From: Nocardiopsis potens DSM 45234
GTDB taxonomy: Bacteria > Actinomycetota > Actinomycetes > Streptosporangiales > Streptosporangiaceae
Reading direction: 5' to 3'
NCBI RefSeq assembly: GCF_000341105.1
Contig: NZ_ANBB01000024.1
Span: forward strand, 39,367 to 103,366
DNA length: 64,000 bases
Shown here: one piece after another, positions 36,113 to 63,771 of the stretch
How the letters are laid out: each line of letters opens with the position of its first letter
Numbering within the stretch: the first letter of the stretch is position 1
Notes under the pieces: generated by a model
Database searches by the model: none
What the model was told of the DNA's origin: nothing
What the model saw: only the letters and a program-made list of their open reading frames with translations
Position numbers and translations under genes: made by a program

Positions 36113-36176
36113 CGATGGTCTCGGCGCTGGGGCCCCGTCAGAGCGCTCTGACGGGGCCCCAGCGCCGAGACCATCG
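36113..36176. repeat. Palindromic element A (perfect 32-bp arms, TCAGAGC/GCTCTGA core)
   Basis: Positions 36113-36144 and 36145-36176 are exact reverse complements with no spacer. The element starts 28 bp after the CPBP-protease stop (minus strand). It belongs to the same family as those at 39923, 54899 and 57481 and the half-copy at 63686. No T-tract follows. Confidence 0.9.
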
Positions 36177-36204
36177 GGAGAGGAGGGGCGCCCGGGGGCC
36201 GCGT

Positions 36205-37533
36205 TCAGCTTGCGGGGCCCGCCGTTCCTCCGCCGTACTGCGGGGGGCCGTAGGGGCCCTGCGAGGGGCCGGGCGGGGTGCGGAAATGCGAGCCGTGGGC
36301 GCCGGGCGGTTCCGCGCCGGCCGGGTCCTGCACCGGCGGGGCCTGCGTCACCCAGCGCGGCAGCCGGCGGCGCTCCGGCGGCGCCTGCACCGCCTCGGGG
36401 TCGCCGGGGGCGGTCCGGCGCAGGCCCCTGCGCCGGGCCAGCAGCACCACCACGGAGCAGAACAGCACCGCCTCGGTGGTGGTGCCGACCACGCCCTCCC
36501 AGGAGCCGCCGCCGGTGGCCGCCTCGGCGAGGGTGCCTTCGAAGGCGCTCAGCCCGAAGGCGGCCAGGTTGTGCACCACGTGCAGCGCGATGGCCGCCTC
36601 CAGGCCGCCGGTGTACCAGGTCAGCCAGGCCATGGCCACGCCGAAGACGGCGACGTCGGCCAGCGCCCAGCCGTGGTAGTCGTGCAGCAGCGCGAAGACC
36701 GTGCCGCTGACCGCGATGCCCAGTGCCGGGGTGCGCAGCGCCCGGGAGGCGAGCGAGCCGCCGCGCCGCTCGGCGGCGCCGCGCCCGTACGAGCCGACCA
36801 GCTGCATCAGGAAGCCGCGCAGCGCGAACTCCTCCGCCGAGGCCTGGAACGGCACCAGCAGCAGGATCACCGCGAGCGCCGGCAGGAACCGCTCCGCGCC
36901 GACGAACGGCCCGACGAAGGCCGCCTCCGGGGAGGTGACCAGCTGCAGCGTGTAGAGCACGCCGAGGTAGGCGGCGATGATCGGCAGCGACACCAGGAAG
37001 CAGGTGCGCAGCCAGCCCCAGCGCATCCGGCCCTCGACCGAGAGCAGCCCGCCCACCCGGCGCCACTGCACCACGCGCGCGGTGAAGAAGACGATCGGGG
37101 TCATCGTCGCCAGCACGATGAGCATGAAGGCCAGGTCGGGGATCTCCGCGCCGAGCGGGGAGTCCGCGGTGGGCGTGCGCCCGCCGAGCAGCGCGGCCAC
37201 GTTCCCGGCCAGGATGAGGACCACCTGGGTGACCAGGATCAGCAGGACCGCGGTGATCAGCGCCAGCGGCGGGATCCACCAGCGGAACCGCCAGGTCCGG
37301 GCCATCCGGTGGTAGGGCGTCCCCGGGGGCGGCTGCGCCGGGCCGGACGGCGCCCGCGGGGGCTGCGGCGGAGGCCACGCCCACACCGCCTGCGCCTCAC
37401 CGGGGGCGGCGGAGCCCGCGGCGGCGCCCGGCGGCCAGGCCCAGTCCTGCGGATGCTGCTGCGCCCCCGGCTGCTCCGGCCCGCTGGGCCCGGAGTGCCA
37501 CGAGGGCCCCGTCGGCGGTGGCGTATTTCTCAT
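36205..37533 (-). CDS. CPBP-family intramembrane metalloprotease (Abi-like)
   Basis: This 442-residue protein has Pro/Gly-rich cytosolic ends and eight or so membrane spans. CPBP motifs are SAEEFALRGFLMQL (EExxxR near 235), FALLHDYHGW and ALHVVHNLAAF, which together form the CaaX-prenyl-protease-type active site, so it should be active. Bacterial relatives process peptides or act in immunity and signalling; no target is identifiable. No SD is visible; TAATCT lies about 9 nt before the ATG at 37533. It is separated from the ECF sigma gene by about 40 bp in the same direction. Confidence 0.83.
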   Translation of the reverse strand: MRNTPPPTGPSWHSGPSGPEQPGAQQHPQDWAWPPGAAAGSAAPGEAQAVWAWPPPQPPRAPSGPAQPPPGTPYHRMARTWRFRWWIPPLALITAVLLILVTQVVLILAGNVAALLGGRTPTADSPLGAEIPDLAFMLIVLATMTPIVFFTARVVQWRRVGGLLSVEGRMRWGWLRTCFLVSLPIIAAYLGVLYTLQLVTSPEAAFVGPFVGAERFLPALAVILLLVPFQASAEEFALRGFLMQLVGSYGRGAAERRGGSLASRALRTPALGIAVSGTVFALLHDYHGWALADVAVFGVAMAWLTWYTGGLEAAIALHVVHNLAAFGLSAFEGTLAEAATGGGSWEGVVGTTTEAVLFCSVVVLLARRRGLRRTAPGDPEAVQAPPERRRLPRWVTQAPPVQDPAGAEPPGAHGSHFRTPPGPSQGPYGPPQYGGGTAGPAS

Positions 37534-37572
37534 CGTTTGCCGAGATTACTATCCGGCCGTGTATTGCCGCTG

Positions 37573-38496
37573 TTAAGAACGCGCCGCATCCCCCGGACCC
37601 GCCGCCGAAGTGCGGAAACCACCGAGTTTGTCGGGGTTGCGCAGGACCAGGACGCGGGTGATCAGACCGTCGGAGACCTCCATCGCGAGCATCGCGTCGA
37701 CCTCCCCGTCCGAACCGCGGAGCAGCCCGGCGGGCTCGCCGCCGACCACCGCCTCCTCCAGCCGGAAGCCGGAGTAGCCGGGGCCGATGGCCGCCAGGAA
37801 GCGGGCGCACTTGTCCGCGCCGAGTATCGGCCGCAGCGCCGCCTTGCGCTTGCCGCCGCCGTCGGAGACCAGCCGGACGTCCTCGGCGAGCAGCGCCTTC
37901 AGCCCGGCCACGTCGCCCTGGAGGCTGGCGGCGAGGAACCGCTCGGTGAGCCGGCGCCGCTCGGCGTCGTCCGGAGCGTAGCGGGGGCGGCGCTCCCGCA
38001 CGTGCGCCCGGGCCCGGTGCGCGATCTGGCGGACCGCCTGCTCGGACCGGTCCACCGCGGCGGCGATCTCCGCGTGCGGGAAGCCGAACACCTCGCGCAG
38101 CACGAACACCGCCCGCTCCACCGGGCCCAGCGTCTCCAGGACGACCAGCAGCGCGTAGGAGACCTCCTCGGCCCGCTCCGCCCGCTCGGCCGCGTCCGGC
38201 GCGGCGCCCAGCGGCTCGGGGAGCCAGGGCCCGATGTAGGTCTCGCGGCGGGCCTTGGCCGAGCGCACCTTGTTCAGCGCCCGGTTGGTGACCGCCCGGA
38301 CCAGGTAGGCGCGGGGTTCGCCGACGGCGGCGCGGTCCGCCCGGTGCCAGCCCAGCCAGGCCTCCTGCACGCAGTCCTCGGCGTCGTGCACGCTGCCCAG
38401 CATGTCGTAGGCGACCGCGAAGAGCAGCCTCCGGTGGCGCTCGAACACCTCTTCCCCGCTGTCGGCGCCGGCTTCCGGTCCGGCAGTGCCCGCCAT
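37573..38496 (-). CDS. ECF41-type sigma factor with SnoaL-like C-terminal domain (SigJ-like)
   Basis: This 307-residue sigma factor has region 2 (FERHRRLLFAVAYDMLGSVH ... EDCVQEAWLGWHRAD), the linker WLPEPLG, region 4 (LETLGPVERAVFVLREVFGF ... AVRQIAHRARAHV) and a C-terminal SnoaL-like extension. The end motif NPDKL and the DGGGKRKAA loop are hallmarks of ECF41. In this group the extension replaces an anti-sigma factor. The usual neighbour (a carboxymuconolactone decarboxylase or oxidoreductase) is absent; a CPBP protease follows instead. ATG at 38496 has GGGAGGA 5 nt upstream. Confidence 0.9.
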   Translation of the reverse strand: MAGTAGPEAGADSGEEVFERHRRLLFAVAYDMLGSVHDAEDCVQEAWLGWHRADRAAVGEPRAYLVRAVTNRALNKVRSAKARRETYIGPWLPEPLGAAPDAAERAERAEEVSYALLVVLETLGPVERAVFVLREVFGFPHAEIAAAVDRSEQAVRQIAHRARAHVRERRPRYAPDDAERRRLTERFLAASLQGDVAGLKALLAEDVRLVSDGGGKRKAALRPILGADKCARFLAAIGPGYSGFRLEEAVVGGEPAGLLRGSDGEVDAMLAMEVSDGLITRVLVLRNPDKLGGFRTSAAGPGDAARS

Positions 38497-38651
38497 CCGG
38501 TCCTCCCTCGCTCCGCCCTCGCTCCGCGTCCGTGCGCGCCGGGCGCTCCGCCCGGTACGACTCTCCCAGAGGAGGCGCCGGGGCCGCGCGGCGGGCCCGG
38601 GGTGTGAGGAGCCCCCGGGACGGAACCGGGAATACCCTGCTGACCTGCAGA

Positions 38652-38665
38652 TAAGGGTACCCTTA
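38652..38665. promoter_or_regulatory. 14-bp perfect palindrome between ECF41 and mrp
   Basis: TAAGGGTACCCTTA lies 20 bp upstream of a TTGACA in the divergent region between the ECF sigma gene and mrp. The local drop in GC and exact symmetry suggest an operator. No known regulator consensus was matched. Confidence 0.45.
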
Positions 38666-38685
38666 CCAGGTATCCGCCGATGTAC

Positions 38686-38711
38686 TTGACACCGCGGGGC
38701 TTCACTACCAT
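38686..38711 (+). promoter_or_regulatory. Candidate mrp promoter
   Basis: TTGACA (38686-38691) is a consensus -35. TACCAT (38706-38711) ends 7 nt before the mrp ATG and could be the -10 of a leaderless mRNA, although the 14-nt spacer is short. GGGG just before the ATG could act as an SD instead. Confidence 0.4.
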
Positions 38712-38718
38712 GGGGTAC

Positions 38719-39858
38719 ATGTCCTCCACTCCCACCACCGAGCAGGTGAACGCGGCCCTGGCGACCGTCCAGGACCCAGAGATCCGCCGCCCCATCACCG
38801 ACCTCGACATGGTCAAGAGCGTCGAGATCGGCGACGACGGCGCCGTGCACGTCGGCATCTACCTCACGGTGGCCGGCTGTCCGATGAAGGGCCGGATCGA
38901 GAAGGACGTCACCGAGGCCGTCGCCAAGGTCGGCGGCGTCACCGGGGTCAAGGTCGAACTCGACGTGATGAGCGAGGAGCAGCGCAAGCAGCTGCAGACC
39001 AAGCTCCGCGGCGGGCAGGCGGAGAAGGAGATCCCCTTCGCCAAGCCCAGCTCGCTGACCAAGGTCTTCGCGGTGGCCTCCGGCAAGGGCGGCGTCGGCA
39101 AGTCCTCGATCACGGTGAACCTGGCCGCCGCGATGGCCGCCCAGGGCAAGAAGGTCGGCGTCGTCGACGCCGACATCTACGGCCACTCGGTGCCGCGGAT
39201 GCTCGGGGTCGAGCACGCGCCCACCAAGGTCGAGGACATGATCATGCCGCCGACCGCGCACGACGTGAAGGTCATCTCGGTGGGCATGTTCACCCAGGGC
39301 AACCAGCCGGTGGTGTGGCGCGGCCCGATGCTCCACCGCGCGCTGCAGCAGTTCCTCGCCGACGTGTTCTGGGGCGACCTCGACGTCCTGCTGATGGACC
39401 TGCCCCCGGGCACCGGCGACATCGCGATCTCGGTGGCGCAGATGCTGCCGGGCGCCGAGATCCTGGTGGTCACCACGCCGCAGCAGGCCGCCGCCGAGGT
39501 GGCCGAGCGGGCCGGCGCCATCTCCGCCCAGACCCACCAGCGGGTCGCGGGCGTGATCGAGAACATGTCGTACTTCACCGCCCCGGGCAGCGAGGAGAAG
39601 ACCTACCTGTTCGGCGAGGGCGGCGGCCGGACCGTCGCCGACGGCCTGACCAAGGCGCTCGGCGCCGAGGTGCCGCTGCTCGGCCAGGTGCCGCTGGACG
39701 TCCGGCTGCGCGAGGGCGGCGACGAGGGCGAGCCCCTGGTGCTGACCGACCCCGACTCCGAGGCCGGCGGCGTGCTGCGCGGCATCGCCGAGCGGCTGGT
39801 CGGCAAGCCCCGCGGCCTGTCCGGGATGCAGCTCGGGATCAGCCCGACCAGGAAGTGA
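38719..39858 (+). CDS. mrp: Mrp/ApbC/NBP35-family Fe-S cluster carrier ATPase
   Basis: This 379-residue P-loop NTPase has an N-terminal MIP18/DUF59 domain (about 1-90, ITDLDMVKSVEIGDDG) and a deviant Walker A, VASGKGGVGKSSITVN, near 115. LLMDLPPGTGDIAI and NMSYF follow. Mrp proteins carry [4Fe-4S] clusters to target enzymes; many lack the CxxC seen in eukaryotic NBP35, and none is obvious here. ATG at 38719 starts the conserved protein; an in-frame ATG at 38680 would add 13 residues that overlap the promoter. Orthologue of Rv1229c, conserved near the sigE module. Confidence 0.92.
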   Translation: MSSTPTTEQVNAALATVQDPEIRRPITDLDMVKSVEIGDDGAVHVGIYLTVAGCPMKGRIEKDVTEAVAKVGGVTGVKVELDVMSEEQRKQLQTKLRGGQAEKEIPFAKPSSLTKVFAVASGKGGVGKSSITVNLAAAMAAQGKKVGVVDADIYGHSVPRMLGVEHAPTKVEDMIMPPTAHDVKVISVGMFTQGNQPVVWRGPMLHRALQQFLADVFWGDLDVLLMDLPPGTGDIAISVAQMLPGAEILVVTTPQQAAAEVAERAGAISAQTHQRVAGVIENMSYFTAPGSEEKTYLFGEGGGRTVADGLTKALGAEVPLLGQVPLDVRLREGGDEGEPLVLTDPDSEAGGVLRGIAERLVGKPRGLSGMQLGISPTRK

Positions 39859-39922
39859 CCTGCGGCGGGGTCGGCGCGGTCTCCCGGTGACCGGGCGGCC
39901 GCGCGGACCCGCGCCGCCCCAC

Positions 39923-39988
39923 GCGATGATCTTGACGTTGCGGGGGTATCAGAGCGCTCTGATACCCCCGCAACGTCAAGATCATCGC
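39923..39988. repeat. Palindromic element B (perfect 33-bp arms)
   Basis: Positions 39923-39955 and 39956-39988 are exact reverse complements. It starts 64 bp after the mrp stop. Compared with element A, 10 of the 32 aligned arm positions differ and every change is mirrored in the opposite arm. The core TCAGAGCGCTCTGA flanked by GATGATCTTGACGTTGC-type arms marks the family. Confidence 0.92.
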
Positions 39989-40010
39989 CTTGTCGAGGAG
40001 GGAGGGCCGC

Positions 40011-40478
40011 GTGCCCGACACCGAGGAGTACCGGGGCTGGCTGCGCATCGCCCTGGAGGAGGCCCGCGCCGGGCTGGCCGAGGGCGGCGTCCCGATCGGC
40101 GCGGCCCTGATCGGCGCCGACGGGTCGGTGCTGGGCCGGGGCCGCAACCGCAGGGTGCAGGACGGCGACCCGTCGGTGCACGGCGAGACCGCGGCGTTCC
40201 GCGACGCCGGCCGGCAGCGCTCCTACGCCGGCACCACCATGGTGACCACGCTCGCGCCCTGCTGGTACTGCAGCGGCCTGGTGCGCCAGTTCGGCATCTC
40301 CCGGGTGGTCGTCGGCGAGGCCCGGACCTTCTCCGGCGGGCAGGACTGGCTCGCCGAGAACGGCACCGAGGTGGTACTGCTGGACGACCCGGAGTGCGTG
40401 GAGCTGATGAGCGGCTTCATCGCCGAGCACCCCGCGGTGTGGAACGAGGACATCGGCGAGGAGCCCGAGGGGAGCTGA
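40011..40478 (+). CDS. Cytosine deaminase, yeast Fcy1-like
   Basis: This 155-residue cytidine-deaminase-fold enzyme has VHGETAAFRDAG (His ligand, catalytic Glu) and TLAPCWYCSGLV (two Cys ligands). Its C-terminal part (VVLLDDPECVELMSGFIAEH then WNEDIGE) matches the yeast cytosine deaminase tail, which closes over the pyrimidine. The likely reaction is cytosine to uracil in pyrimidine salvage. tRNA adenosine deaminase is less likely because that tail is absent there. GTG at 40011 has GGAGGGAGGG 4 nt upstream. A strong intrinsic terminator follows. Confidence 0.85.
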   Translation: MPDTEEYRGWLRIALEEARAGLAEGGVPIGAALIGADGSVLGRGRNRRVQDGDPSVHGETAAFRDAGRQRSYAGTTMVTTLAPCWYCSGLVRQFGISRVVVGEARTFSGGQDWLAENGTEVVLLDDPECVELMSGFIAEHPAVWNEDIGEEPEGS

Positions 40479-40496
40479 CCCCCGGCGCGCAGCGGA

Positions 40497-40544
40497 GAGG
40501 GCCCCGGCCCGGTGGAAGCCCACCGGGCCGGGGCCCTCGCTTTT
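40497..40544 (+). terminator. Intrinsic terminator
   Basis: A perfect 19-bp stem (40497-40515 with 40520-40538) around four nt is followed by GCTTTT. It starts 19 bp after the cytosine deaminase stop and also faces the convergent htrA, so it may act on both. Confidence 0.85.
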
Positions 40545-40580
40545 CCGTCCGCGGCCTCCCCGGGGTCCGGGGCGGCGGGC

Positions 40581-41969
40581 TCAGAGGGTGACGTCGGTCG
40601 TCCTGCTCCGGCCGTTGCGCTCGTACTCGACCTCCACGGTGTCGTCCGGCTTCTTGTCGGCGACCAGCTCCTGGAGGGTCTCGCTGTCGGTGACGGTGCG
40701 CCCGTCGAAGCGGGTGATCACGTCGCCGGGGCGCAGGCCCGCCTCGTCGGCCGGGCTTCCCGGGGTGACGGCGCCCTCCTCGTCGGCGATCTGCGCGCCG
40801 CCGTCCGCGTAGCCGCTGTCCAGCGCGACGCCCAGCGCCGCCTTGGAGGACGATCCGCCGGACTCCCCGGAGCCCGCGGAGCCGCCGTCGATGATCTCGT
40901 TCACGACCTCCTCGGCCACGTCTGAGGGGATGGCGAAGCCGAGGCCGATGCTGCCGCTCTGCTCGCCGGGGGCCCCGCCCATCGTGGCGATGGCGGTGTT
41001 CACCCCGATGACCCGGCCCTGCTCGTCGACGAGCGGGCCGCCGGAGTTGCCCGGGTTGATCGCGGCGTCGGTCTGCAGCGCCTTGATGTCGGTGCGGGCG
41101 CCGTCCTCGCCGAGCGCCACCGAGCGGTCCTTGGCGCTGATGATGCCGGTGGTGACGGTGCCCGCCAGGCCCAGCGGGGCGCCGATGGCGATCACCTGGT
41201 CCCCGACGGTGACGTCCTCGGAGGAGCCGAACTGGAGCGGCTCGACGTCGCGCAGCGGGCGGCGGATCTTCAGCACCGCCAGGTCGCTCTCCGGCCGGGT
41301 GCCGACGATGTCGGCGGGGCTGGTGCGGCCGTTGCTGTAGGCGACCTCCATCCCCTCCTCCAGGGCGCCCGCGACGTGGAAGTTGGTCACCACGTGGTCG
41401 TCGTCGATGATGAAGCCGGAGCCGTTGCCGCCGCGGGAGCGGTCGTCCGGCTGGATCGAGACCACGCTGGGGCTGACCCGCTGGGCGACGCCGGCGATGG
41501 TGTCCGGGGCGCGGCTGGGCGCGTCACTGGGGGCGTTGTTGAGCTTGACGCCCTCGCCCTGGGTGCCCCCGTCGGCCGCGGGCGCTCCGACCCTTCCGCC
41601 GACGAACCCGCCGACCCCGGCGGCGACCAGTGCGACCAGCACCACCACCAGCAGGACTGACCAGATCGGCATGCCCCGGCGCGGGGGCCGGGGGGCGGCG
41701 GGCGCCTCCCCGCCGGGCGGCGGCGGGGGCGGGCCGGGGGGCACCGCACCGGGAGGCACCGCGCCGGGGGGCGGCCCCGGCGGCTGCATCGCCCCGCCCG
41801 CCGGAGCGGGGCCGGGGCCGGCCGGCTCCGCGCCGGGCGGGACCTGCCCGCCGGGGCCGAAGGGTCCGGGGCGGTGGGCCGGCTGCTGACCGGTGCCCGG
41901 GCCGTACGGGCCCGCCGGGTTCGGCCGCGACGGGCCTTCGGGGGGCGGGGTGCCGGTCTCGTCCGTCAT
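40581..41969 (-). CDS. htrA: HtrA/DegP-like serine protease with PDZ domain
   Basis: This 462-residue membrane-anchored protease has a Pro/Gly-rich cytosolic N-terminus (about 1-98), one membrane span (SVLLVVVLVALVAAGVGGFV), then a trypsin-like domain with the triad in TNFHVAG, SDLAVLK and GNSGGPL. A PDZ domain occupies about 370-455. It faces the outside and degrades misfolded envelope proteins. It ends the sigE-rseA-rseB-like-htrA cluster, the counterpart of Rv1221-Rv1223. The start at 41969 has GGAGACG upstream. A tatB gene, which follows in M. tuberculosis, is absent here. Confidence 0.93.
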   Translation of the reverse strand: MTDETGTPPPEGPSRPNPAGPYGPGTGQQPAHRPGPFGPGGQVPPGAEPAGPGPAPAGGAMQPPGPPPGAVPPGAVPPGPPPPPPGGEAPAAPRPPRRGMPIWSVLLVVVLVALVAAGVGGFVGGRVGAPAADGGTQGEGVKLNNAPSDAPSRAPDTIAGVAQRVSPSVVSIQPDDRSRGGNGSGFIIDDDHVVTNFHVAGALEEGMEVAYSNGRTSPADIVGTRPESDLAVLKIRRPLRDVEPLQFGSSEDVTVGDQVIAIGAPLGLAGTVTTGIISAKDRSVALGEDGARTDIKALQTDAAINPGNSGGPLVDEQGRVIGVNTAIATMGGAPGEQSGSIGLGFAIPSDVAEEVVNEIIDGGSAGSGESGGSSSKAALGVALDSGYADGGAQIADEEGAVTPGSPADEAGLRPGDVITRFDGRTVTDSETLQELVADKKPDDTVEVEYERNGRSRTTDVTL

Positions 41970-42135
41970 GAAAGTCGTCTCCGTCTGTCGCTGCCTCCTC
42001 CCGATTGTGGAGGAGATCGCGTAAACCGTCGGTTAGTGGGCGCCACCGACCGCGTCCACCCGAGTGAACACTATGCCGCCAATGCGCGGTATACCCCATC
42101 GAGGACGATGCCGGGCATCGCGCGTCCGGGGCCGG

Positions 42136-43227
42136 TCAGATTCCGAACCAGTCGCCGAACCGGGCGAAGCCCCGGTCCACCCGGTCCCAGAAGCCGACCT
42201 CGTCCGGTCCGGGCAGCGAGGCGGCCGCCGCGGCGACCGCGTCCGCCGGGGCGTCGGCGAGCATCGTGTACACGTACTCCTCCGACTCCCACATCCGGCG
42301 CTGCTGACCGGCCCCGCCCATGTAGACGGTTCCGCCGCCGCCTTCGACCGCGCGCATGCCCTGTCCGGTTCCGCCCGATCCGGGACCGAGCCGGCCGCGC
42401 TCGACGAAGACCGAGATGACCGAGAGGCCGTCGGAGTAGCTGAGGTGCACCACCGGCCCGGAGGGCTTGCGCTTGGTCCGCGCGTCCATCAGCCGGTAGT
42501 TCCAGGAGAGCCGGTCCGGCGCGGTCCAGCCGTCGGCGCGCAGCTCCCGGAGCTCGCCCTGGTCCAGCCGGTCGCCCCACGGGTCGGGGGAGCGCCCGTC
42601 CCCGGCCGCGCCGGCGGCCGCGTCCACCACCCGGAACTCGGTGAACTCGGAGAAGTGCACCACCCGGCCGAGCGGGTCCAGGGTCATCCGGCGCAGCGGC
42701 AGCCCGGTCTCGCCGTCGATCCAGAACCGGCCGGCCGCGCCGCCGTCGGCGCGCAGCGCCTCGACCAGCTCCGCCGGGCGGCCGGAGACCTCGCCGGCCC
42801 CGGCCCGGACCACCCGGTAGTTCTCCTCCAGGGCGTCCAGGACGCGGGCGCCGGGGTCGGGCCACTCCGAGGAGGCGGCGGGGCGGAGCCGCATCCCGCC
42901 CGCGCCGCCCGGCTCGTGGAACCGGGTGCCCGTCTCCGCGCTGTGCTCGACCTCGACGACCCGGTGCTCGGTGCCGGCCGGGCCGGTGGAGCTGATCGCC
43001 TGCACCCCCTGGTAGGAGACCTTCCGGGAGGCGTCCGCGGCCCGGCGGAGCAGGTCCATGCCGTCGTCGGCGCCGCCCGCCGGGCCCTGCCCGCTGCCCG
43101 GACCAGACGAGGCGGTCAGGGTCAGCGCGAGCAGCAGCGCGCAGCAGAGGGCGAGCAGGGCCGTAGAGCCGTCGTACCGGGAGCGATCGCCCCCGCAGGG
43201 CCATGGAGCTCCGTCGCGCCCGGTCAC
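42136..43227 (-). CDS. MucB/RseB-like sigma-E regulatory protein
   Basis: This 363-residue protein has an N-terminal hydrophobic anchor (ALLALCCALLLALTLTAS). A MucB/RseB-type large domain follows (RKVSYQGVQAISSTGPAGTE, then FWIDGETGLPLRRMTLDPLG) and a C-terminal small domain. RseB binds the periplasmic face of the anti-sigma factor and, in E. coli, senses lipoproteins and LPS; here an exported lipid or peptide signal is an inference. The GTGA overlap with the anti-sigma stop (43224-43227) indicates translational coupling. GTG at 43230 is the alternative. htrA follows 166 bp downstream. Confidence 0.8.
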   Translation of the reverse strand: MTGRDGAPWPCGGDRSRYDGSTALLALCCALLLALTLTASSGPGSGQGPAGGADDGMDLLRRAADASRKVSYQGVQAISSTGPAGTEHRVVEVEHSAETGTRFHEPGGAGGMRLRPAASSEWPDPGARVLDALEENYRVVRAGAGEVSGRPAELVEALRADGGAAGRFWIDGETGLPLRRMTLDPLGRVVHFSEFTEFRVVDAAAGAAGDGRSPDPWGDRLDQGELRELRADGWTAPDRLSWNYRLMDARTKRKPSGPVVHLSYSDGLSVISVFVERGRLGPGSGGTGQGMRAVEGGGGTVYMGGAGQQRRMWESEEYVYTMLADAPADAVAAAAASLPGPDEVGFWDRVDRGFARFGDWFGI

Positions 43228-43907
43228 CACGCCCGCGGGGTGCCGTCGCCCCCGGACGTCCCGGGGACGTGTGCGACGGGCCCGACCGGGGTGCCGGGGG
43301 CGCTCCGCGCCCCCTCCGCGCCGTCCTCGGAGGCGGGCAGGGCGGCCTGCCCCGCGGTCAGCGCGTGCTCCACCGCGTAGTCCTCCAGGGAGGGGCGGAC
43401 CACCGGGGCCTGCTCGGCGTCGCCGCCGGCCACGAAGGCGGTGCCCAGGGTCAGCGCGAGCGCGGACACTCCTGCCACCGCATAGCGGGTGCGGTGCCAG
43501 CCGGGCCGCAGCACCGACGGGGCCTGCAGCGGGCGCCGGGGCCGCCGGGCCGGCGGCTGGGCGGCCGCGGGGCCCGGGGCGGGGCCGGCGGGCGGCGGGC
43601 CGCCCAGCGGCCGACTCGACCCCAGCGGCGGCGGTCCTCCGAACAGGCCGCCGCTACCGGGGCCGGGTGGTTCCGACGAGCGGTCGGGCGGGCCGGCGCC
43701 CAGCGCGGACAGCCTGCCGAGGAAGTCGCTCGACGGGTCCGGGGCGTCCAGCCCGTGCAGCCGGCGCTTGAGCCGGCGGAGCATGTCGGCCTCGAAGCGG
43801 CACGAGTCGCATGAGGCCAGATGGATCAGCGCCCGGTCCCGCTCGGCGGGCCCCAGCTCACCGTCGACCAGGGCGGAAATCCGCTCGCCCAGGTGCTCCA
43901 TGCTCAT
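43224..43907 (-). CDS. rseA: Anti-sigma factor (ZAS/zf-HC2), RseA type
   Basis: This 227-residue protein has an N-terminal zinc-binding anti-sigma domain with the HxxxCxxC motif IHLASCDSC near 28-36. A long Pro/Gly-rich linker leads to one membrane span ([21 protein letters not shown]) and an outside domain. It should hold SigE inactive at the membrane. ATG at 43907 overlaps the sigE stop as ATGA and has GGGAGGTGGA upstream, so sigma and anti-sigma are made in step. The outside part ends in [15 protein letters not shown], which has no recognised fold. Confidence 0.88.
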
Positions 43908-45529: not shown

Positions 45530-45542
45530 GCCGGCCGGCCGG

Positions 45543-49184: not shown

Positions 49185-49368
49185 CGGGCGTCCTCGGCCG
49201 GGGGCCGGCTGGCGGCTCGTTTCAGGAACATCGCACTCACTCATCCTCACGTGCGAACGGCGTGCTCGGGCACCGGCACGGGCGGTCGCCCATCCGGTAC
49301 AGCGTCAGAGGATATGGCACGGCGCGAGCGGGCGGCCGCCGGTCCGGCGGAGCGCGCCCCGGCGGGGG

Positions 49369-49956: not shown

Positions 49957-50008
49957 CGGGGAGTCCTCTCCTGGGGCGGTACGGGGGGCGGAGCGGGTCA
50001 GGGGCGGG

Positions 50009-50428
50009 TCAGCCGGCCGAGCCGGGGCGGCCCCGCTCGGCCTCTCCGCCGTCGCCGTTCCGGCCCGTCCCGAGCGGCTGCCCGCCCGGGGGCGTCCGCG
50101 GGTAGAGCACCCGCGGCCCGGTGGAGGCCGGGACCTCGGCGAGCCGCCGCTCCAGTTCGGCGATGTGCTCGTCGCGCTCGTTCAGCGCCGCCGAGGCCCT
50201 GCGCAGCACCTCGTCGACGCCGCGGACATGGTAGCCCCACAGCGCCAGCGGCAGGGTGAGGCGTCCGATGTCCGCGGACGTCAGGCCGCGCCCCTCCGGC
50301 AGGTCGAGCGGCGGCCGGTCGGCCTCGAAGCGCGCCAGCCGGCCCCCTTTGCCCATGACCGCGTAGGCGACCCCGCACAGCACGGCCGCCGCGGCCACCG
50401 CGATGAGGAACAGGATGGTTGGATTCAC
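50009..50428 (-). CDS. DivIVA-like single-span membrane protein (Rv1209-like)
   Basis: This 139-residue protein begins with a membrane helix (MNPTILFLIAVAAAAVLCGV). A short DivIVA-type motif follows (DRPPLDLPEGRGLTSADIGR), with a coiled coil (VDEVLRRASAALNERDEHIA) and a Pro/Gly tail. Position before tagA matches Rv1209. It may act at the cell pole or septum, but that is inferred from the motif only. GTG at 50428; CGGGACC upstream is a weak SD. Confidence 0.75.
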   Translation of the reverse strand: MNPTILFLIAVAAAAVLCGVAYAVMGKGGRLARFEADRPPLDLPEGRGLTSADIGRLTLPLALWGYHVRGVDEVLRRASAALNERDEHIAELERRLAEVPASTGPRVLYPRTPPGGQPLGTGRNGDGGEAERGRPGSAG

Positions 50429-50504
50429 GGTCCCGATCGTGCCATACCGCGGCGGCCCGGTGCCCGGGAGCCGGTCGCCCCGCGGCCGTGGCAGACTCGG
50501 TGCG

Positions 50505-50819
50505 ATGGAGACGCACGACGCCGGCCTCGGCTGCGAGGTCCTGGAGCCCGGGGCCGCCGCCCCCGCGGGCGCGGTCGACGCGGGGCACCGCCCGTCGGCC
50601 GCGCGGGTGCGCGCGCTGGCCGCGGGCCCGCTGCCGGTCCTGGTCCGCTGCGAGGCCGAGGACGAGGCGGAGAGCACCGCCCTGGTGGCGCTCTACGCCT
50701 GGCTGGGCGCGCGGCTGTTCACCACCGGCCACCCCCGGTCGGCCCGCCAGGCGCTGGACATGGTGGCCTCGGTGGCCGGGGGCCGGCCGCCCGCCGCGGT
50801 CCGCCGCGGGCTGGCCTGA
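50505..50819 (+). CDS. Truncated dihydropteroate-synthase-like protein
   Basis: This 104-residue protein ends GARLFTTGHPRSARQALDMV then ASVAGGRPPAAVRRGLA, which resembles the last 45 residues of FolP2-type dihydropteroate synthases (an R-V-H motif, then TRRALEMVA). In M. tuberculosis folP2 (Rv1207) lies between the Rv1205 and Rv1210 orthologues, the same place. The N-terminal TIM-barrel strands with the pterin and pABA sites are missing, so it cannot be an active synthase. CAGACT lies 7 nt before the ATG at 50505, suggesting a leaderless mRNA. It ends 10 bp from the convergent LOG gene. Confidence 0.6.
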   Translation: METHDAGLGCEVLEPGAAAPAGAVDAGHRPSAARVRALAAGPLPVLVRCEAEDEAESTALVALYAWLGARLFTTGHPRSARQALDMVASVAGGRPPAAVRRGLA

Positions 50820-50829
50820 CCCCTCCGGG

Positions 50830-51627
50830 CTACTCCCCGTCGCCCTCGCGGGCCAGCGCCTCGGCGGCGGCCCGCTCCTCCTTCTCCCGGACCATGTTCT
50901 GGCTGGCCTTGTCGATGACCGCGACCGCCTCGGCCGGGTCGTCGGTGAGGTGGATCAGGTCCGGGTCCTCCGGCGAGATGACGCCCTCGTCCAGCAGCCG
51001 GCCGCGGATCCAGTCGACCAGCCCGCCCCAGAACTCGGTGCCCAGCAGCACCACCGGGAAGCGGGTCACCTTGCGGGTCTGCACCAGCGTGATGGCCTCG
51101 AAGAGCTCGTCCAGGGTGCCGAAACCGCCCGGGAGCACCACGAACGCCTGGGAGTACTTCACGAACATCGTCTTGCGGACGAAGAAGTACCGGAAGGTGA
51201 CGCCGGTGTCCACGAACTCGTTGAGCGACTGCTCGAAGGGGAGCTCGATGCCCAGTCCGATGGAGGTCCCGCCGGCCTCGGCGGCGCCCTTGTTGGCCGC
51301 CTCCATCAGGCCGGGGCCGCCCCCGGTGATCACCGTGTACCCGGCCCGCGCCAGCAGCGAGCCGACTTCGGTGCCCAGGTCGTAGTAGGGGGTGTCGGGT
51401 TTGATCCGGGCCGAGCCGAACACGCTGACCGCCCGGCCCAGCTCGGAGAGGAGCCCGAAGCCCTCGACGAACTCCGACTGGATGCGCAGCACCCGCCACG
51501 GGTCGGTGTGCACCCAGTCGGTGGGACCGCGCCGGTCGAGCAGGCGCTGGTCGGTGGTGGTCTGCGGGATCGCGTCGCCCCGGTAGGTCAACGGCCCCGC
51601 CCGTCGGATCTTGTCGGCGTCGGTCAT
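50830..51627 (-). CDS. LOG-family nucleotide 5'-monophosphate hydrolase (TIGR00730)
   Basis: This 265-residue Rossmann protein has VSVFGSARIKPDTPYY, the motif GYTVITGGGPGLMEAANKGA and VVLPGGFGTLDELFEAITLV. These are the LOG/lysine-decarboxylase-like signatures (PGGxGTxxE). Plant LOGs release cytokinins; the Rv1205 orthologue does so in M. tuberculosis. In soil actinobacteria the physiological substrate is unproven. It has an N-terminal extension of about 60 residues compared with short LOGs. TAGTTT lies 6 nt before the ATG at 51627. dapE lies 50 bp upstream. Confidence 0.88.
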   Translation of the reverse strand: MTDADKIRRAGPLTYRGDAIPQTTTDQRLLDRRGPTDWVHTDPWRVLRIQSEFVEGFGLLSELGRAVSVFGSARIKPDTPYYDLGTEVGSLLARAGYTVITGGGPGLMEAANKGAAEAGGTSIGLGIELPFEQSLNEFVDTGVTFRYFFVRKTMFVKYSQAFVVLPGGFGTLDELFEAITLVQTRKVTRFPVVLLGTEFWGGLVDWIRGRLLDEGVISPEDPDLIHLTDDPAEAVAVIDKASQNMVREKEERAAAEALAREGDGE

Positions 51628-51677
51628 GGGCCCAAACTATCCGGTCCGGCCCTCTCGGGCGGGGCCGGTTCCGGCAA

Positions 51678-52763
51678 CTATCCGCGGCCGTTCGCCGAAC
51701 CGCCCGCGCCCGTCAGCCAGTCGGTCATCCGCCGCTCGGCCTGGTCGACCAGGGCCAGGTCCACCCATTCGCCGCGGGTGTGCGCCAGGGTGGGCTCGCC
51801 GGGGCCGTAGTTGACCGCGGGCACGCCCAGCTCGGACATGCGCGCCACGTCGGTCCAGCCGAGCTTGGCCCGGGCCTCGCCGGCGCCGACCGCGGCGACG
51901 AACTCGGCGGCGGCCGGGTCGTCCAGCCCGGGGCGGGCCGGCGGGGCCGCGTCGGTGACCCGCACGTCGAAGCCGGCGAACACCTCGCGCAGGTGCTCCT
52001 CGGCGTCCTTGACCGAGCGGTCCGGGGCGAACCGGTAGTTCACCGTGACCGTGCACTCGTCCGGGACGACGTTGCCGGCCACCCCGCCGGAGATGAAGAC
52101 CGCGTTGAGCCCCTCGTGGTAGCGGAGGCCGTCCACCTCGGGCTCGCGCGGGGTGTAGCCGCGGAGCACGTCCAGGATCCGCCCGGCGCCGTGGATGGCG
52201 TTCTCGCCCATCCAGGAGCGGGCGCTGTGCGCGCGCTCGCCGCGCGCGATCACCTCGACCCGCATGGTCCCCTGGCAGCCGCCCTCGATCACGCCGCCGG
52301 TGGGCTCCAGCAGCACCGCGAAGTCGCCGGTGAGCCACTCGGGGTGGTCCCGGGAGAGGCGGCGCAGCCCGTTCCGCTCGGCGTCGACCTCCTCGCAGTC
52401 GTAGAAGACGAAGGTGAGGTCGTGCACCGGCTCGGTGAGGGCGGCGGCCAGCCGCAGCTGCACCGCGACGCCGCTCTTCATGTCGGAGGAGCCGCACCCG
52501 TAGAGCCGGTCGCCCTCGCGCCGGGAGGGGACGTTGTCCACGATCGGCACGGTGTCGATGTGCCCGGCCAGCACGACGCGCTTGGCGCGGCCGAGGTCGG
52601 TCCGGGCGACCACGGCGTCGCCGTCCCGGTCCACCCGCAGGTGGCCCAGCCCGGACAGGGAGCGTTCGATCATGTCGGCCAGCGCGCGCTCTCCGCCGCT
52701 GACCGACTCGGTGTCGACGAGTCGCGCGGTGAGGGTGCGGACGTCTGCTGTGAGGTCGAGCAT
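51678..52763 (-). CDS. dapE: Succinyl-diaminopimelate desuccinylase
   Basis: This 361-residue M20 enzyme has VLAGHIDTVPI, GCGSSDMKSGVA, FVFYDCEEVDAERNG (catalytic Glu) and late LLEPTGG and LAHTRGEWV zinc ligands. It releases succinate from N-succinyl-LL-diaminopimelate in lysine and peptidoglycan precursor synthesis. ATG at 52763 (MLDLTADV) matches the usual start and has GGAAAG about 8 nt upstream; ATG at 52790 is in frame. Beside dapD, as Rv1201c-Rv1202; dapC lies 5.5 kb away. Confidence 0.94.
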   Translation of the reverse strand: MLDLTADVRTLTARLVDTESVSGGERALADMIERSLSGLGHLRVDRDGDAVVARTDLGRAKRVVLAGHIDTVPIVDNVPSRREGDRLYGCGSSDMKSGVAVQLRLAAALTEPVHDLTFVFYDCEEVDAERNGLRRLSRDHPEWLTGDFAVLLEPTGGVIEGGCQGTMRVEVIARGERAHSARSWMGENAIHGAGRILDVLRGYTPREPEVDGLRYHEGLNAVFISGGVAGNVVPDECTVTVNYRFAPDRSVKDAEEHLREVFAGFDVRVTDAAPPARPGLDDPAAAEFVAAVGAGEARAKLGWTDVARMSELGVPAVNYGPGEPTLAHTRGEWVDLALVDQAERRMTDWLTGAGGSANGRG

Positions 52764-52841
52764 CTGAGGGCTTTCCGGGTCGGCACTCATGGCGTGGCCC
52801 GGGGGCGGGGCCGCCCCCGGGCCGTCACGGCTGCGCCGGCG

Positions 52842-53678
52842 TCAGGCGTTGACGCCGTGCTCGCGGAGCAGGTCGTTGAGGGCCAGCTTGTCGTGCTCCT
52901 GGCCCTCCTCCAGGCGCTTGAGGACGAGCAGCACCGGCATCCCGAAGTCGCCGCCGGGGAAGCTCTTCACCTTGTTCGCGGTGACGCACACCGACCAGGC
53001 CGGGGCCTCGCCGCGGGGCAGCTCCTCGCCGGTCTGCGCGTCGTAGACCCGGGTCGAGGCGGTGAGGATGGTGCCCGCGCCGAGCTTGGCGCCGCGGCGC
53101 ACCCGGGCGCCCTCGACGACCATGCTGCGCGAGCCGAGGAACGCGTCGTCCTCGATGATCACCGGGGAGGCCTGCGGCGGCTCCAGCACGCCGCCGACGC
53201 CGACGCCGCCGGAGAGGTGGACGTTCTCGCCCACCTGGGCGCAGGAGCCGACGGTGGCCCAGGTGTCGACCATGGTGCCGGAGCCGACCCAGGCGCCGAA
53301 GTTGGTGAAGGACGGCATCAGCACGACGCCGGGGGCCAGGTAGGCGCCCCAGCGGGCGATGGCGCCGGGAACGACGCGGACGCCGTCGAAGCGGGTCTTG
53401 AGCGGGATCCGGTCGTGGTGGTGGAAGTCACCGACCTTGGACTCCTCCATGCCGAGCACGCGGAAGCTCAGCAGGATGGAGCGCTTGGCGCGCTCGTCGA
53501 CGACCACCTGGTCCGTGTCCGGGTCGACGAAGGCGACCCGGGCCTTGCCGGCGTCCAGTTCGTCGACGGCGCCGACGATGGTGTCGCGGGCCGCGGTGTC
53601 GTCAGGGGTCAGCTCGGAACGGCGCTCCCAGAGATCGTCGATCTCGGCGGGCAGCGGGCTGGTGAACGAGGTGGTCAT
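52842..53678 (-). CDS. dapD: Tetrahydrodipicolinate N-succinyltransferase
   Basis: This 278-residue left-handed-beta-helix enzyme is of the actinobacterial class. The hexapeptide core includes YLAPGVVLMPSFTNFGAWVG, SGTMVDTWATVGSCAQVGEN and LSGGVGVGGVLEP. It transfers succinyl from succinyl-CoA to tetrahydrodipicolinate, the committed step of the succinylase branch. TAGGCT lies 8 nt before the ATG at 53678, with no SD, so the mRNA is probably leaderless. It precedes dapE with 78 bp between. Confidence 0.94.
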   Translation of the reverse strand: MTTSFTSPLPAEIDDLWERRSELTPDDTAARDTIVGAVDELDAGKARVAFVDPDTDQVVVDERAKRSILLSFRVLGMEESKVGDFHHHDRIPLKTRFDGVRVVPGAIARWGAYLAPGVVLMPSFTNFGAWVGSGTMVDTWATVGSCAQVGENVHLSGGVGVGGVLEPPQASPVIIEDDAFLGSRSMVVEGARVRRGAKLGAGTILTASTRVYDAQTGEELPRGEAPAWSVCVTANKVKSFPGGDFGMPVLLVLKRLEEGQEHDKLALNDLLREHGVNA

Positions 53679-53945
53679 GGCCTGTGAGCCTACTGGTTCC
53701 GGGCTGGTCCGACCAACCGGGGGCGCCGCGCGTCCACCTCGGCCCGGTACGCTCCTGCGGCGCGGGGAGTCCGGCCCGCCCCGGTCGGGCACGCCTTACC
53801 ATTCGGGGTGAGCGACCCCCGGCTCGCAAGACGTGAGAGATCCCCGGCCCCGATCGACTCCGGGGGCCGGTCCCTGTCCGACGGGGTCTTCCGCCGTGCG
53901 GCCCTGCGCCGCCGGGCGGGCCCCCTGAATCCCTACGGTCTGCCT

Positions 53946-54866
53946 GTGCACGATAACCCGCGCCGACAGAGGCGAGAACGGCGGAAGAGGAAGTCCTCCG
54001 CCTTCATCAAGATCCTGGTGGCACTGACGCTCGTCTGCGGTGCCCTGGTCGCCGTGGGCGTCTACGTGATCCGCTCGATCGGACCGGTGGACATCGACCC
54101 GCCGGTCGCCGCGGGCTGCGCGGTCTCCGGCGAGGGGCGCGACGACGTCCTCGAGCCCGAGCAGGCCGCCAGCGCCGCGACCGTGTCCGGTGTCGCGTTC
54201 GCCCGGGACCTGCCCGAGGAGGCGGTGGTCATCGCCTTCGCCACGGTCTGGCAGGAGACCAAGTTCTTCAACATCGACTACGGCGACCTCGACTCCGTGG
54301 GCCTGTTCCAGCAGCGCCCCTCCCAGGAATGGGGCGAGCCGGAGCAGATCATGGACCCGGTCTACGCCAGCGGGAAGTTCTACGAGCACCTGGAGAAGGT
54401 GGACGGCTACACCGAGATGCCGGTCTACGAGGCGGCCCAGGCGGTGCAGCGGAGCGCCGACGGGTTCGCCTACGACCAGCACGAGAAGCGCTCCCGGGAG
54501 ATGGCCGCGGCGTTCACCGGCTCCTCCGGGGGCGCGCTGACCTGCTGGCCGGCCCGGCCGGCCGGCGGGGAGGGGTCCCCCTCCCCCTCGGCCCGCCCGG
54601 CGGCCGAACCGGACGACGTCCGGGCCGCCCTGGAGGAGATGGAGCGGGTCTTCGGCGCCTCGCCGGAGGCCGTGCCCGCCTCCGGCGAGCAGCCGCGCAC
54701 CGGCGACCTGGGCTGGGCGATGGCGCTGTGGGCGGTGGCCCACTCCGAGGAGTACGGGCTGAGCTCGGTCACCTACCAGGACCAGCGGTGGACCGCGCAG
54801 AACGGCGAGGAGGGGTGGGGCACCGTCCCGGACGCCGCCCCCGACGGCGAGGTGGTCCTGGGCTGA
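53946..54866 (+). CDS. Membrane-anchored lytic-transglycosylase-like exported protein
   Basis: This 306-residue protein has a basic N-terminus and one membrane span (FIKILVALTLVCGALVAVGV). Its outside domain contains VIAFATVWQETKFFNIDYGD then LDSVGLFQQRPSQEWGEPEQ, a glutamate plus GLFQQRP pattern seen in actinobacterial transglycosylase-like proteins. Activity on peptidoglycan is plausible but unproven. GTG at 53946 has TACGGT 6 nt upstream, a leaderless pattern; the longer frame to 53808 lacks conserved sequence. A palindromic repeat lies 32 bp after the stop. Confidence 0.75.
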   Translation: MHDNPRRQRRERRKRKSSAFIKILVALTLVCGALVAVGVYVIRSIGPVDIDPPVAAGCAVSGEGRDDVLEPEQAASAATVSGVAFARDLPEEAVVIAFATVWQETKFFNIDYGDLDSVGLFQQRPSQEWGEPEQIMDPVYASGKFYEHLEKVDGYTEMPVYEAAQAVQRSADGFAYDQHEKRSREMAAAFTGSSGGALTCWPARPAGGEGSPSPSARPAAEPDDVRAALEEMERVFGASPEAVPASGEQPRTGDLGWAMALWAVAHSEEYGLSSVTYQDQRWTAQNGEEGWGTVPDAAPDGEVVLG

Positions 54867-54898
54867 CCCGCCCGGAAGGGCCCCGGCCGGCCCTCCCT

Positions 54899-54960
54899 GA
54901 GGATCTGTGCGTTGCGGCCCTGTCAGAGCGCTCTGACAGGGCCGCAACGCCGAGATCGTC
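54899..54960. repeat. Palindromic element C (62 bp, 28 of 31 pairs)
   Basis: Centred at TCAGAGC/GCTCTGA (54929/54930), with inner arms GCGTTGCGGCCCTGTCAGAGC-like and perfect; three mismatches lie in the outer arm. It starts 32 bp after the stop of the upstream gene and lies between convergent genes. Same family as elements A and B. Confidence 0.9.
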
Positions 54961-55025
54961 GCCCGGTCGACGGTCTCGGGGCCGCCCCGGCCGAGGGCGC
55001 CCCGGGAACGGGATCGCGCAGAGCC

Positions 55026-55064
55026 GGCGGGCCCGTGCCGCCCCTTCCCCGGCACGGGCCCGCC
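55026..55064 (-). terminator. Hairpin after the siderophore-binding lipoprotein gene
   Basis: GGCGGGCCCGTGCCG (55026-55040) and its exact complement at 55050-55064 form a 15-bp stem, 39 bp beyond the stop at 55104. Confidence 0.6.
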
Positions 55065-55103
55065 CGCTGCCCGGGTGCGGCGGCGCCGCGCCCCGGGCGG
55101 GGG

Positions 55104-56084: not shown

Positions 56085-56086
56085 TT

Positions 56087-56105: not shown

Positions 56106-56110
56106 TGTCA

Positions 56111-57460
56111 ATGTCCGAGACTGTGAACGCACCCACGCCGATGACGGTTCCGCCCAAGTTCAAGCCCGCGGTGGTCTTCCCGCGCGGCACCGCGCCGGTG
56201 GTCCGGGCCGCCGAGCTGGCCGCCGCCCGGGGCCCCGCCGCGGTCGAGGAGTTCTGGCGCGCCGCGGAGCGCACCGGCACCCCGGTGGTCGAGGAGACCG
56301 GCTCCCCCGGCGAGCGCACCGCCACCTTCCTGTGGCGCGGCGGGGACGGGCTCTCCGATGTGATCCTCGTCGCGGACCGCAGCGCCGACGCCCGCTCCTT
56401 CGAGCGGAACCGGATGGAGCGCGTCCCCGGGAGCGACATCTGGCACCTCACCTACCGGATGCGCTCCGACTGGCGCTGCTCGTACGCGGTGGCGCCGGTC
56501 CCGGCCGACGGGAGCCCGCCGCCGCCCGGCCCCGCGAACGAGATGTCCCGCGTCCGCCGGGCCCGCGCGCTCGCCGCCGCCGACCCGGCCGACGCTCCGG
56601 CCATCGCCCGCTGGTTCGACGCCCTGGCGCACGCCCGCCCCGACCCGCTGGCCCGGGAGCGGCTGGACGGCGCCTGGTCGGTGGCCTCGCTGCCGGACGC
56701 CCCCGCCGAGCTCTGGCGCACCGCCCCCGGCGGCGCACCGCAGGGCAGGGTGGACCGGCACCGGCTGGCGAGCGGGGCGCTCGGCAACACCCGCACCGTC
56801 CGGGTGTACACGCCCGCGGCGGAGCCGCCGGAGGGCGGGTGGCCGGTCGCGGTGCTGCTGGACGGCGAGGAGTGGTGGTCGCTGCCGCTGGCCCCGCTGC
56901 TGGACCGGCTCATCGCCGCGGGGACCCTGCCGCCGATGCTGGTCGCGATGGTGCCCTCGCTCGGCTTCGCCGTCCGGACCCGCGAGCTGGCCTGCCACGA
57001 CCCGTTCGTGGAATTCCTCACCGGATCGGTGCTGCCGCTGCTCCGCGCCGGGCACGGCGGCTGCGCCGACCCGCGCCGCACCCTGGTGGCCGGGCAGAGC
57101 CTGGGCGGGCTCACCGCGCTCTACACCGCGCACCGGGCCCCGGAGCACGTCGGCCGGGCGCTCTCCCAGTCCGGCTCCTACTGGTGGCCCAACCCGGGCG
57201 GCACCGGCGGCGAGACCGAGCGGATGGCCCGGCTGCTCGCCGAGGCGCCGTCCCCGCCCGACCGGGTCCACCTCAGCGTCGGCCTGAACGAGCCGGTCCT
57301 GGTCGGCCCCAACCGGCGGCTGCGCGACGTGCTCCGCGAGCGCGGCGCGGACCTGCACTACACCGAGTTCAACGGCGGCCACGACCGGGCCTGCTGGCGG
57401 GCCGGCCTGCCGGACGCCCTGGCCGCCCTCACCTCCGACTGGCCCGCCGCCCGCCGCTGA
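56111..57460 (+). CDS. Enterochelin-esterase-like siderophore esterase (Fes family)
   Basis: This 449-residue protein has an N-terminal Fes-type domain (about 60-190, VTFLWRG-like strand TATFLWRGGDGLSDVILVAD) and a C-terminal esterase. The nucleophile motif is LVAGQSLGGLTALYTAHRAP; VAVLLDGEEWW and FNGGHDRACWRAGLPDAL supply the remaining elements. It should hydrolyse a ferric tri-ester siderophore in the cytosol to release iron. ATG at 56111 has TATCCT 7 nt upstream; ATG at 56105 is in frame. A degenerate palindromic element follows 20 bp after the stop. Confidence 0.88.
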   Translation: MSETVNAPTPMTVPPKFKPAVVFPRGTAPVVRAAELAAARGPAAVEEFWRAAERTGTPVVEETGSPGERTATFLWRGGDGLSDVILVADRSADARSFERNRMERVPGSDIWHLTYRMRSDWRCSYAVAPVPADGSPPPPGPANEMSRVRRARALAAADPADAPAIARWFDALAHARPDPLARERLDGAWSVASLPDAPAELWRTAPGGAPQGRVDRHRLASGALGNTRTVRVYTPAAEPPEGGWPVAVLLDGEEWWSLPLAPLLDRLIAAGTLPPMLVAMVPSLGFAVRTRELACHDPFVEFLTGSVLPLLRAGHGGCADPRRTLVAGQSLGGLTALYTAHRAPEHVGRALSQSGSYWWPNPGGTGGETERMARLLAEAPSPPDRVHLSVGLNEPVLVGPNRRLRDVLRERGADLHYTEFNGGHDRACWRAGLPDALAALTSDWPAARR

Positions 57461-57480
57461 CCCCGCCCGTCCCCTTTTCC

Positions 57481-57546
57481 GCGATGATCTTGGCGTTGCG
57501 GCCGCCTCGGCACCGGTCGAGACGGCGACAGCGCCGAGATCACCGC
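57481..57546. repeat. Palindromic element D (degenerate)
   Basis: The left arm starts GCGATGATCTTGGCGTTGCG like element B. Its right arm GCGCCGAGATCACCGC pairs with it at about three quarters of positions, some as G-T. The TCAGAGCGCTCTGA core is replaced by CCTCGGCACCGGTCGAGACGG. It starts 20 bp after the esterase stop. Confidence 0.75.
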
Positions 57547-63717: not shown

Positions 63718-63771
63718 GGGTGGTTTCCAGTGTCCGCTGCAACACCGCGCACCAGAGGACAGGAGGAGCCC

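Follow-up and report, generated by a model that had tools for sequence, protein, structure and literature searches.

We have found, in a 64,000-nucleotide stretch of the genome of Nocardiopsis potens DSM 45234 (contig NZ_ANBB01000024.1, positions 39,367 to 103,366; the whole stretch is called the window), members of a large family of palindromic repeats that lie outside genes and are mostly 64 bp long. The reading towards which we lean, though modestly, is that they are mobile elements comparable to repetitive extragenic palindromes (REPs), which spread and stay symmetrical through copying of DNA, with selection on an RNA hairpin playing no such part. What carries this reading is observed directly: a high copy number, a fixed length, conserved ends, a position just past stop codons, symmetrical changes in the two arms and no bias towards pairs that only RNA would tolerate.

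A first-pass annotation, made from the letters of the window alone, had listed three strong palindromes and a degenerate one. All four were found again where it had placed them, the third with its limits moved from 54899-54960 to 54898-54961 and the fourth at 57482-57545, and its set lacked the last three entries below. Bit scores are those of a covariance model derived from 37 copies in the genome of the window (G000).

36113-36176, no strand assigned: perfect 64-bp palindromic repeat with 32-bp arms, 28 bp past the stop of the called gene 36205-37305 (minus strand); 91.4 bits.
39923-39988, no strand assigned: perfect palindromic repeat with 33-bp arms, one pair more than the 64-bp element, lying 64 bp past the stop of the called gene 38710-39858 (plus strand) and about 22 bp ahead of the called start of 40011-40478 (plus strand); 91.8 bits for 39924-39987.
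54898-54961, no strand assigned: 64-bp copy whose ends have decayed, lying between convergent genes and 31 bp past the stop of 54018-54866 (plus strand); the inner 21-bp half-arms are perfect and the ends mismatched; 76.1 bits.
57482-57545, no strand assigned: degenerate copy, about 20 bp past the stop of the called gene 56141-57460 (plus strand); 45.4 bits, E 3e-9.
8561-8623, no strand assigned: additional degenerate copy, between the called divergent genes 7056-8444 (minus strand) and 8741-11104 (plus strand); 49.7 bits, E 2e-10.
14929-14991, no strand assigned: weak copy of very high G+C content, lying between convergent genes 22 bp past the stop of 13644-14906 (plus strand) and overlapping by 6 bp the called 3' end of 14986-18411 (minus strand); 33.6 bits, E 4e-6.
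63686-63719, plus strand: half copy near the window's end, a lone left arm whose partner arm is absent.

The two perfect palindromes, with arms of 32 and 33 bp, differ at 10 of 32 arm positions, and all 10 changes are mirrored in the opposing arm, just as had been described. The distances to the preceding stop codon, put earlier at 20-65 bp, were measured with a codon-usage gene caller as 28, 64, 32 and 20 bp. Single-strand folding with DNA parameters turned the perfect window copies into full-length hairpins of -45 and -40.7 kcal/mol.

G000 is a 6.9-Mb draft, 99.4% complete. It was searched together with a close relative (G004, three contigs) and other genomes, among them N. endophytica RSe5-2 (G003) and N. 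suaedae LSu2-4 (G002). The 14-base core TCAGAGCGCTCTGA has 50 exact matches in G000 and 74 with at most one mismatch; the reversed control has none at either setting, and the search for the core that the annotation had proposed thus establishes a real family, far above chance. The covariance model gave at least 150 strand matches (about 75 places) in G000 and likewise at least that many in G004. A pattern that fixed only the ends (GATGATCTYG...CRAGATCATC) and left the interior unconditioned found 80 places in G000, 43 in G004, 99 in G003, 42 in G002, 10 in G001 and 1 in G005, these being the six members of the genus that were searched; the reversed pattern found 0. A scan of named genomes for exact ends gave 41 stretches in Nocardiopsis endophytica, N. 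suaedae, N. chromatogenes and Actinorugispora endophytica. Within the class, 34 of 394 genomes have pattern matches, some of which are chance matches inside genes without pairing. A distant genus, labelled g105, has genuine hairpins built on this plan whose interiors differ; four of its genomes have 58, 63, 72 and 99 matches, and its elements are 74 bp long in all 20 copies read from two genomes. One further genome (G025) has 147 pattern matches, almost none of them read. Hairpins with the shared ends G(A/T)TGATCT(T/C)G, that is, with terminal inverted repeats, recur across lineages with differing interiors.

An assembly artefact was rejected as the source of the palindromes, because the three-contig assembly of G004 has the same perfect ones. 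Draft contigs do terminate at or near elements, both in G000 (C2:251349 of a contig of 251398, and C79:4) and in G003 (C3:95, C12:7, C23:31, C36:89 and C46:15), as short-read assembly is expected to break at repeats and palindromes. The copies listed on contig C1 of G004 lie, by eye, mostly at 1.5-5.0 Mb of its 6.03 Mb, with few towards the ends.

For the anatomy of the family, 168 copies selected on their ends only were read: 68 from G000, 43 from G004 and 57 from G003 and the named genomes, after removal from the last set of 5 duplicates of the same places, which altered the direction of no result. Exactly 64 bp was the length of 153 of the 168 (61 of 68, 35 of 43 and 57 of 57, respectively); in the named genomes, though not in G003, the search pattern itself admitted nothing longer. 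The interior in G000 and G004 is typically GACGTTGCGG, followed by five variable paired bases and a palindromic or nearly palindromic centre. The typical interior in N. endophytica, N. suaedae and N. chromatogenes is GACG, three variable purines, GTGCTGTCA and a 12-base loop. The ends are conserved, as the search itself required, and the inner stem is lineage-specific.

A second hairpin family, 86-88 bp long, has a near-identical end motif and the form CGTTGATCTTGG, paired variable bases, ATCGACCGGTC ... GACCGGTCGAT ... CCAAGATCAACG; the bases beside its ends apparently co-vary. It was seen at L027:2057-2143 in G000 and at loci L084, L105, L114 (two), L115, L215 and L252 in G004. A half hairpin of this second family adjoins a fragment at about 9800-10900 of L087 in G004, which we take to resemble the N-terminus of an IS481-type transposase.

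Position relative to genes is strongly non-random. None of the 168 copies lies inside a called gene; 80 lie between tandem genes, 68 between convergent and 8 between divergent ones, and 12 at contig or locus edges. In G000 the counts are 35 tandem, 31 convergent and 2 divergent; 50 of the 68 copies are no more than 35 bp from a stop and 62 no more than 100 bp. Random 64-bp intergenic placements in the same loci, drawn from gaps that included the elements themselves, are 55% tandem, 12% convergent and 33% divergent, and come as close as 35 bp to a stop in 16% of cases and as close as 100 bp in 33%. At these two distances G004 has 24 and 36 of 43 copies. N. endophytica and the named genomes have many long distances, up to 1738 bp, to which failures of the gene caller on short genes and on loci cut short contribute. 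Of the 20 g105 copies, 18 have a convergent or tandem placement, 1 lies inside a gene and 1 is divergent. By the gene caller alone, the stop codon falls within the element's own end (TGA inside CG(A/T)TGATC) in 6 copies of the Nocardiopsis type and 4 of g105. Insertion into pre-existing terminator stems was considered as a source of the position and rejected, as the flanks in place pair no better than shuffled ones and somewhat worse.

The two arms of a copy resemble one another more than they resemble those of other copies in the lineage of the window. Over the inner 21 positions, the mean number of differences in G000 is 1.21 within an element against 4.81 between elements, and 32 of 61 copies have identical half-arms; in G004 it is 2.43 against 6.38, with 12 of 35 identical. 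Matching changes in both arms at low-variation stem positions number 27 in G000, against 18 in one arm and 4.8 double changes expected if the arms were independent, and 10 in G004, against 6 and 1.1. In G003 and the named genomes there are 15 against 40, with 3.5 expected, and the arms agree at positions 16-18 from the centre in 53-58% of copies, close to the 50-54% that independent arms give. Co-variation is therefore strong in the G000/G004 lineage and weak, though not nil, in that of N. endophytica and N. suaedae. An earlier covariation score for G000 was reached by 0 of 500 shuffles; that test used 37 of 49 exact-core copies, with 12 imperfect or shifted ones excluded, and since its sample was selected for good copies the sets selected on ends only are the fair tests. 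The claim that the arms co-vary perfectly therefore holds for the two perfect window elements and fails genome-wide, where 29 of 61 G000 copies have non-identical half-arms. Of the counter-signs that the annotation had named, placement at random with respect to genes is not what we find, and arms that drift almost independently are found at several stem positions in N. endophytica and N. suaedae.

Selection for an RNA stem would tolerate G-U mismatches and not A-C ones. Mismatches were therefore counted on the transcribed strand of tandem copies no more than 120 bp from a stop, whose transcribed strand is known. The 45 tandem copies of G000 and G004 have 21 G-U, 26 A-C and 27 other mismatches more than 2 positions from the centre. 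There are 17, 14 and 8 in 16 copies of G003 and the named genomes (more than 6 positions from the centre), and 5, 5 and 10 in six tandem g105 copies (stem positions 13-25 from the outer end). The ratio of 21 to 26 fits an even split (one-sided P 0.28), whereas a G-U share of 78.5%, that of two-step changes in rRNA stems in PMC8794818 and a loose benchmark only, would give it a probability of about 4e-7. This absence of a G-U preference argues against selection for an RNA stem, and the symmetry of the element appears to be a property of the DNA.

Comparison of orthologous sites bears on the same point. Of 23 G000 copies with a comparable site in G004, the element was present there in 10 and absent, by our threshold, in 13; as the G004 regions were chosen for holding elements, this is not an unbiased rate. 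One of the 13 sites scored empty retains a hairpin with related ends. The eight ortholog pairs of equal length show 39 concerted changes against 15 in one arm only, the other two of the ten being left out of this total for their differing lengths; in one of those two, 7 bp are missing from both arms. The changes are unevenly divided, with 29 concerted and 1 single in four pairs and 10 concerted and 14 single in the other four; the pair L014/L087 is the least certain in its orthology. The arms diverge at 95 of 512 positions (18.6%), against 10.4% at 17,722 fourfold sites in 92 gene alignments, a yardstick that may itself be constrained by extreme G+C content. Whether arms are kept alike by selection for a stem or by conversion between arms had been posed as the alternative, and this was the right fork; the lack of a G-U bias and the concerted changes at orthologous sites, including the 7-bp indel in both arms, make the evidence lean to DNA copying.

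The orthologs differ at 7, 14, 15, 12, 13, 20, 2 and 12 of 64 positions, against a median of 15 for random cross-genome pairs; six of the eight distances fall at percentiles 0.31-0.85 of random pairs, and of the other two the one at 0.003 is clearly closer, the one at 0.07 perhaps so. The 61 G000 copies comprise 52 distinct 64-mers, with seven groups of identical ones at different loci. The ordinary ortholog distances and the identical copies speak for the overwriting of one copy by another. To judge from these alignments, position at the compared sites is shared by descent more than sequence is. The imperfect copies in L183, L200 and L019 look chimaeric, with one arm from each of two variants, which suggests recombination between copies. 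Sites in common between G000 or G004 and N. endophytica, N. suaedae or N. chromatogenes turned up in 6 of 11 comparisons (4 distinct places); chance may yield one or two by a rough estimate, and these sites are not used as evidence.

A RAYT-like transposase, which the annotation had suggested looking for, did not turn up in this genome: the RAYT transposase domain Y1_Tnp (PF01797) has 0 matches in G000, 0 in G004 and 0 in all 12 g105 genomes searched, 9 of which carry 12-99 element matches. Of the 22 genomes searched, six do have the domain, among them the element carriers G003, G025 and G556; two of the six matches are short and partial. Open frames of 145-282 aa encode Y1_Tnp proteins in the repeat-bearing genomes G003, G005, G025 and G556, the RAYT and IS200/IS605 types being undistinguished. 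A REP moved by a RAYT is thus unsupported for the window's genome; a RAYT may play a role in the genomes that have the domain, such as G003, G025 and G556. Direct repeats of at least 3 bases abut 30 of 149 copies, against 15.7 (standard deviation 3.4) in shuffles, a comparison confounded by C/G runs; the excess on the G000/G004 side hints at target duplication. Carriage by phages or plasmids was rejected. The window elements had no match in plasmid and phage collections, and one g105 element had none in plasmids. Viral contigs contained no stretches of the GTTGATCTTGG form and 56 of the GATGATC form, which we ascribe to chance because their inner positions hardly pair (10 of 17 in the best, median 23%).

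We propose that a new copy would be laid down whole as a near-perfect palindrome by a putative enzyme that recognises the hairpin together with its conserved ends, CG(A/T)TGATCT(T/C)G. Single-arm mutations would then build up, and some would pass to the opposite arm, the probable route being template switching as a strand folds back during replication. Sites would persist while the sequence of other copies overwrites theirs. Ending or protecting transcripts may be a side effect of the putative hairpin. Template switching at hairpins is a documented route to symmetrical multi-base changes (PMC8794818; compare PMC7202029 and PMC8604942).

Several observations weigh against this proposal. No mobilising enzyme was identified in the searches described above, and no clean empty site was seen among the compared G000 and G004 sites. 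One of the 13 sites scored empty in G004 keeps a remnant of one end only, so that absence there is loss by deletion. The comparison in which the nearest paralog within G000 is closer than the ortholog in 7 of 8 cases is biased, the paralog being the best of about 90. The excess of direct repeats comes mainly from G000 (16 against 7.4), and the set of N. endophytica plus the named genomes has none (9 against 11.0). In G003 and the named genomes, differences over the inner 21 positions, which include the 12-base loop, are 6.40 within elements and 5.87 between them, and 0 of 57 copies have identical half-arms; with arms that scarcely co-vary in the copy-rich N. endophytica lineage, symmetry is not a general property. 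Symmetrical changes confined to one copy are few (2 in G000, 2 in G004 and 1 in G003 and the named genomes), so that copying from arm to arm is less directly shown than the spread of whole variants. Gene positions, finally, come from our own caller, trained on the window.

Other explanations account for parts of the evidence. The elements could be transcription terminators or stabilisers of mRNA 3' ends, in which the RNA stem is selected and the arms co-vary by compensatory mutation. Their place just past stops and between convergent genes, and the very stable predicted RNA hairpins, are what this would give. We nevertheless hold it unlikely: G-U is not above A-C on the transcribed strand (21 against 26), a scan of 36000-55100 found no T tract after any of the three elements there, the paired arms diverge faster than fourfold sites, which may be constrained, and a terminator could do without conserved ends and without a fixed length of 64 bp. 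Ranking next, and improbable too in our judgement, is a set of fixed hairpins that do not spread and whose arms are kept alike purely by template switching, that is, by quasipalindrome correction. Changes made in concert at orthologous sites, among them the 7-bp indel in both arms, would be expected of it, as would the fast divergence of the arms, and PMC8794818 documents the mechanism; this explanation leaves unexplained why one family has 80 copies, why identical copies sit at different loci and why interiors are common within one lineage and different in another.

The symmetry could also come from a dimeric chromosome-organising protein, such as a nucleoid protein or gyrase, that reads both half sites. 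Symmetry without RNA-strand bias, conserved ends, fixed length and a position after genes agree with such binding sites, and gyrase-binding repeats are indeed sited after genes. A reader of sequence would hardly tolerate inner bases that vary among lineages and copies yet pair, and the length differs by lineage (64 bp here against 74 bp in g105), which makes this the least probable of the explanations, with little chance of being right.

Among known systems, the REP/RAYT elements (GTAG- and CGTC-tagged REPs and bacterial interspersed mosaic elements, BIMEs) are likewise high in copy number, extragenic, palindromic, mostly placed after genes and genome-specific in sequence. REPs measure 20-40 bp (PMC3733652), whereas the elements described here have 64 bp and often near-perfect arms, and the RAYT domain is absent from G000, G004 and the g105 genomes searched; RAYTs are treated in PMC2817692. 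As for the REP tags, GTAG is absent from the consensus and CGTC lies inside the arm, not at its end. Miniature inverted-repeat transposable elements (MITEs) are similarly short, non-coding and numerous, with about 10 bp of conserved inverted ends and a variable interior, but the interior here also pairs as a stem and target duplication is only hinted at. Quasipalindrome correction by template-switch mutation (PMC8794818; compare PMC7202029) also acts on DNA, makes arms alike and produces multi-base double changes; it is described as a mutational process at individual sites, whereas here it would act over a dispersed, self-overwriting family of repeats. Intrinsic terminators of high-G+C bacteria share the strong G+C-rich hairpin right after stops and between convergent genes, but the elements have no T tract, have conserved ends and length, and carry mismatches without RNA-strand bias. 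A scan of 36000-55100 for T-tract terminators listed none of its three elements; some high-G+C terminators lack a T tract. Integron attC sites resemble the elements in having conserved ends and a variable but paired interior and in lying directly after a gene, and differ in that the elements here are dispersed through the chromosome.

The annotation had known of no named family with this core, and we found none in the open-access literature or in Rfam. No description of the repeat family appears by title or abstract in the open-access literature searched by organism, kind and motif letters. Rfam, searched with window positions 35900-40200, has no family above its gathering cut-off (best, mir-9242 at 38.9 bits against a cut-off of 62). 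The consulted part of the REP-superfamily survey PMC3733652 has no mention of actinobacteria or of the genera tried. Small palindromic extragenic repeats are known as a class; a fixed-length, end-defined form that rewrites its stem, with no RAYT in its own genome, is new to us.

Co-variation of stem arms is usually taken as proof of a selected RNA structure. In the elements described here, a large natural set, strong co-variation of the arms goes together with a strand test that argues against selection on RNA. The same set can be used to measure homogenisation at the DNA level, both between arms and between copies. A wider idea, which we regard as possible and on balance doubtful, is that there is an undescribed Actinomycete superfamily of mobile DNA hairpins of fixed length with a common 10-bp end, whose non-RAYT enzyme would read the end and the folded strand, whose stems would be rewritten lineage by lineage and whose old sites would be overwritten with the current sequence. 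RAYTs are the only enzymes that we know of as movers of REPs. If the elements are indeed mobile, Actinomycetes would own a REP-like system that is independent of RAYTs.

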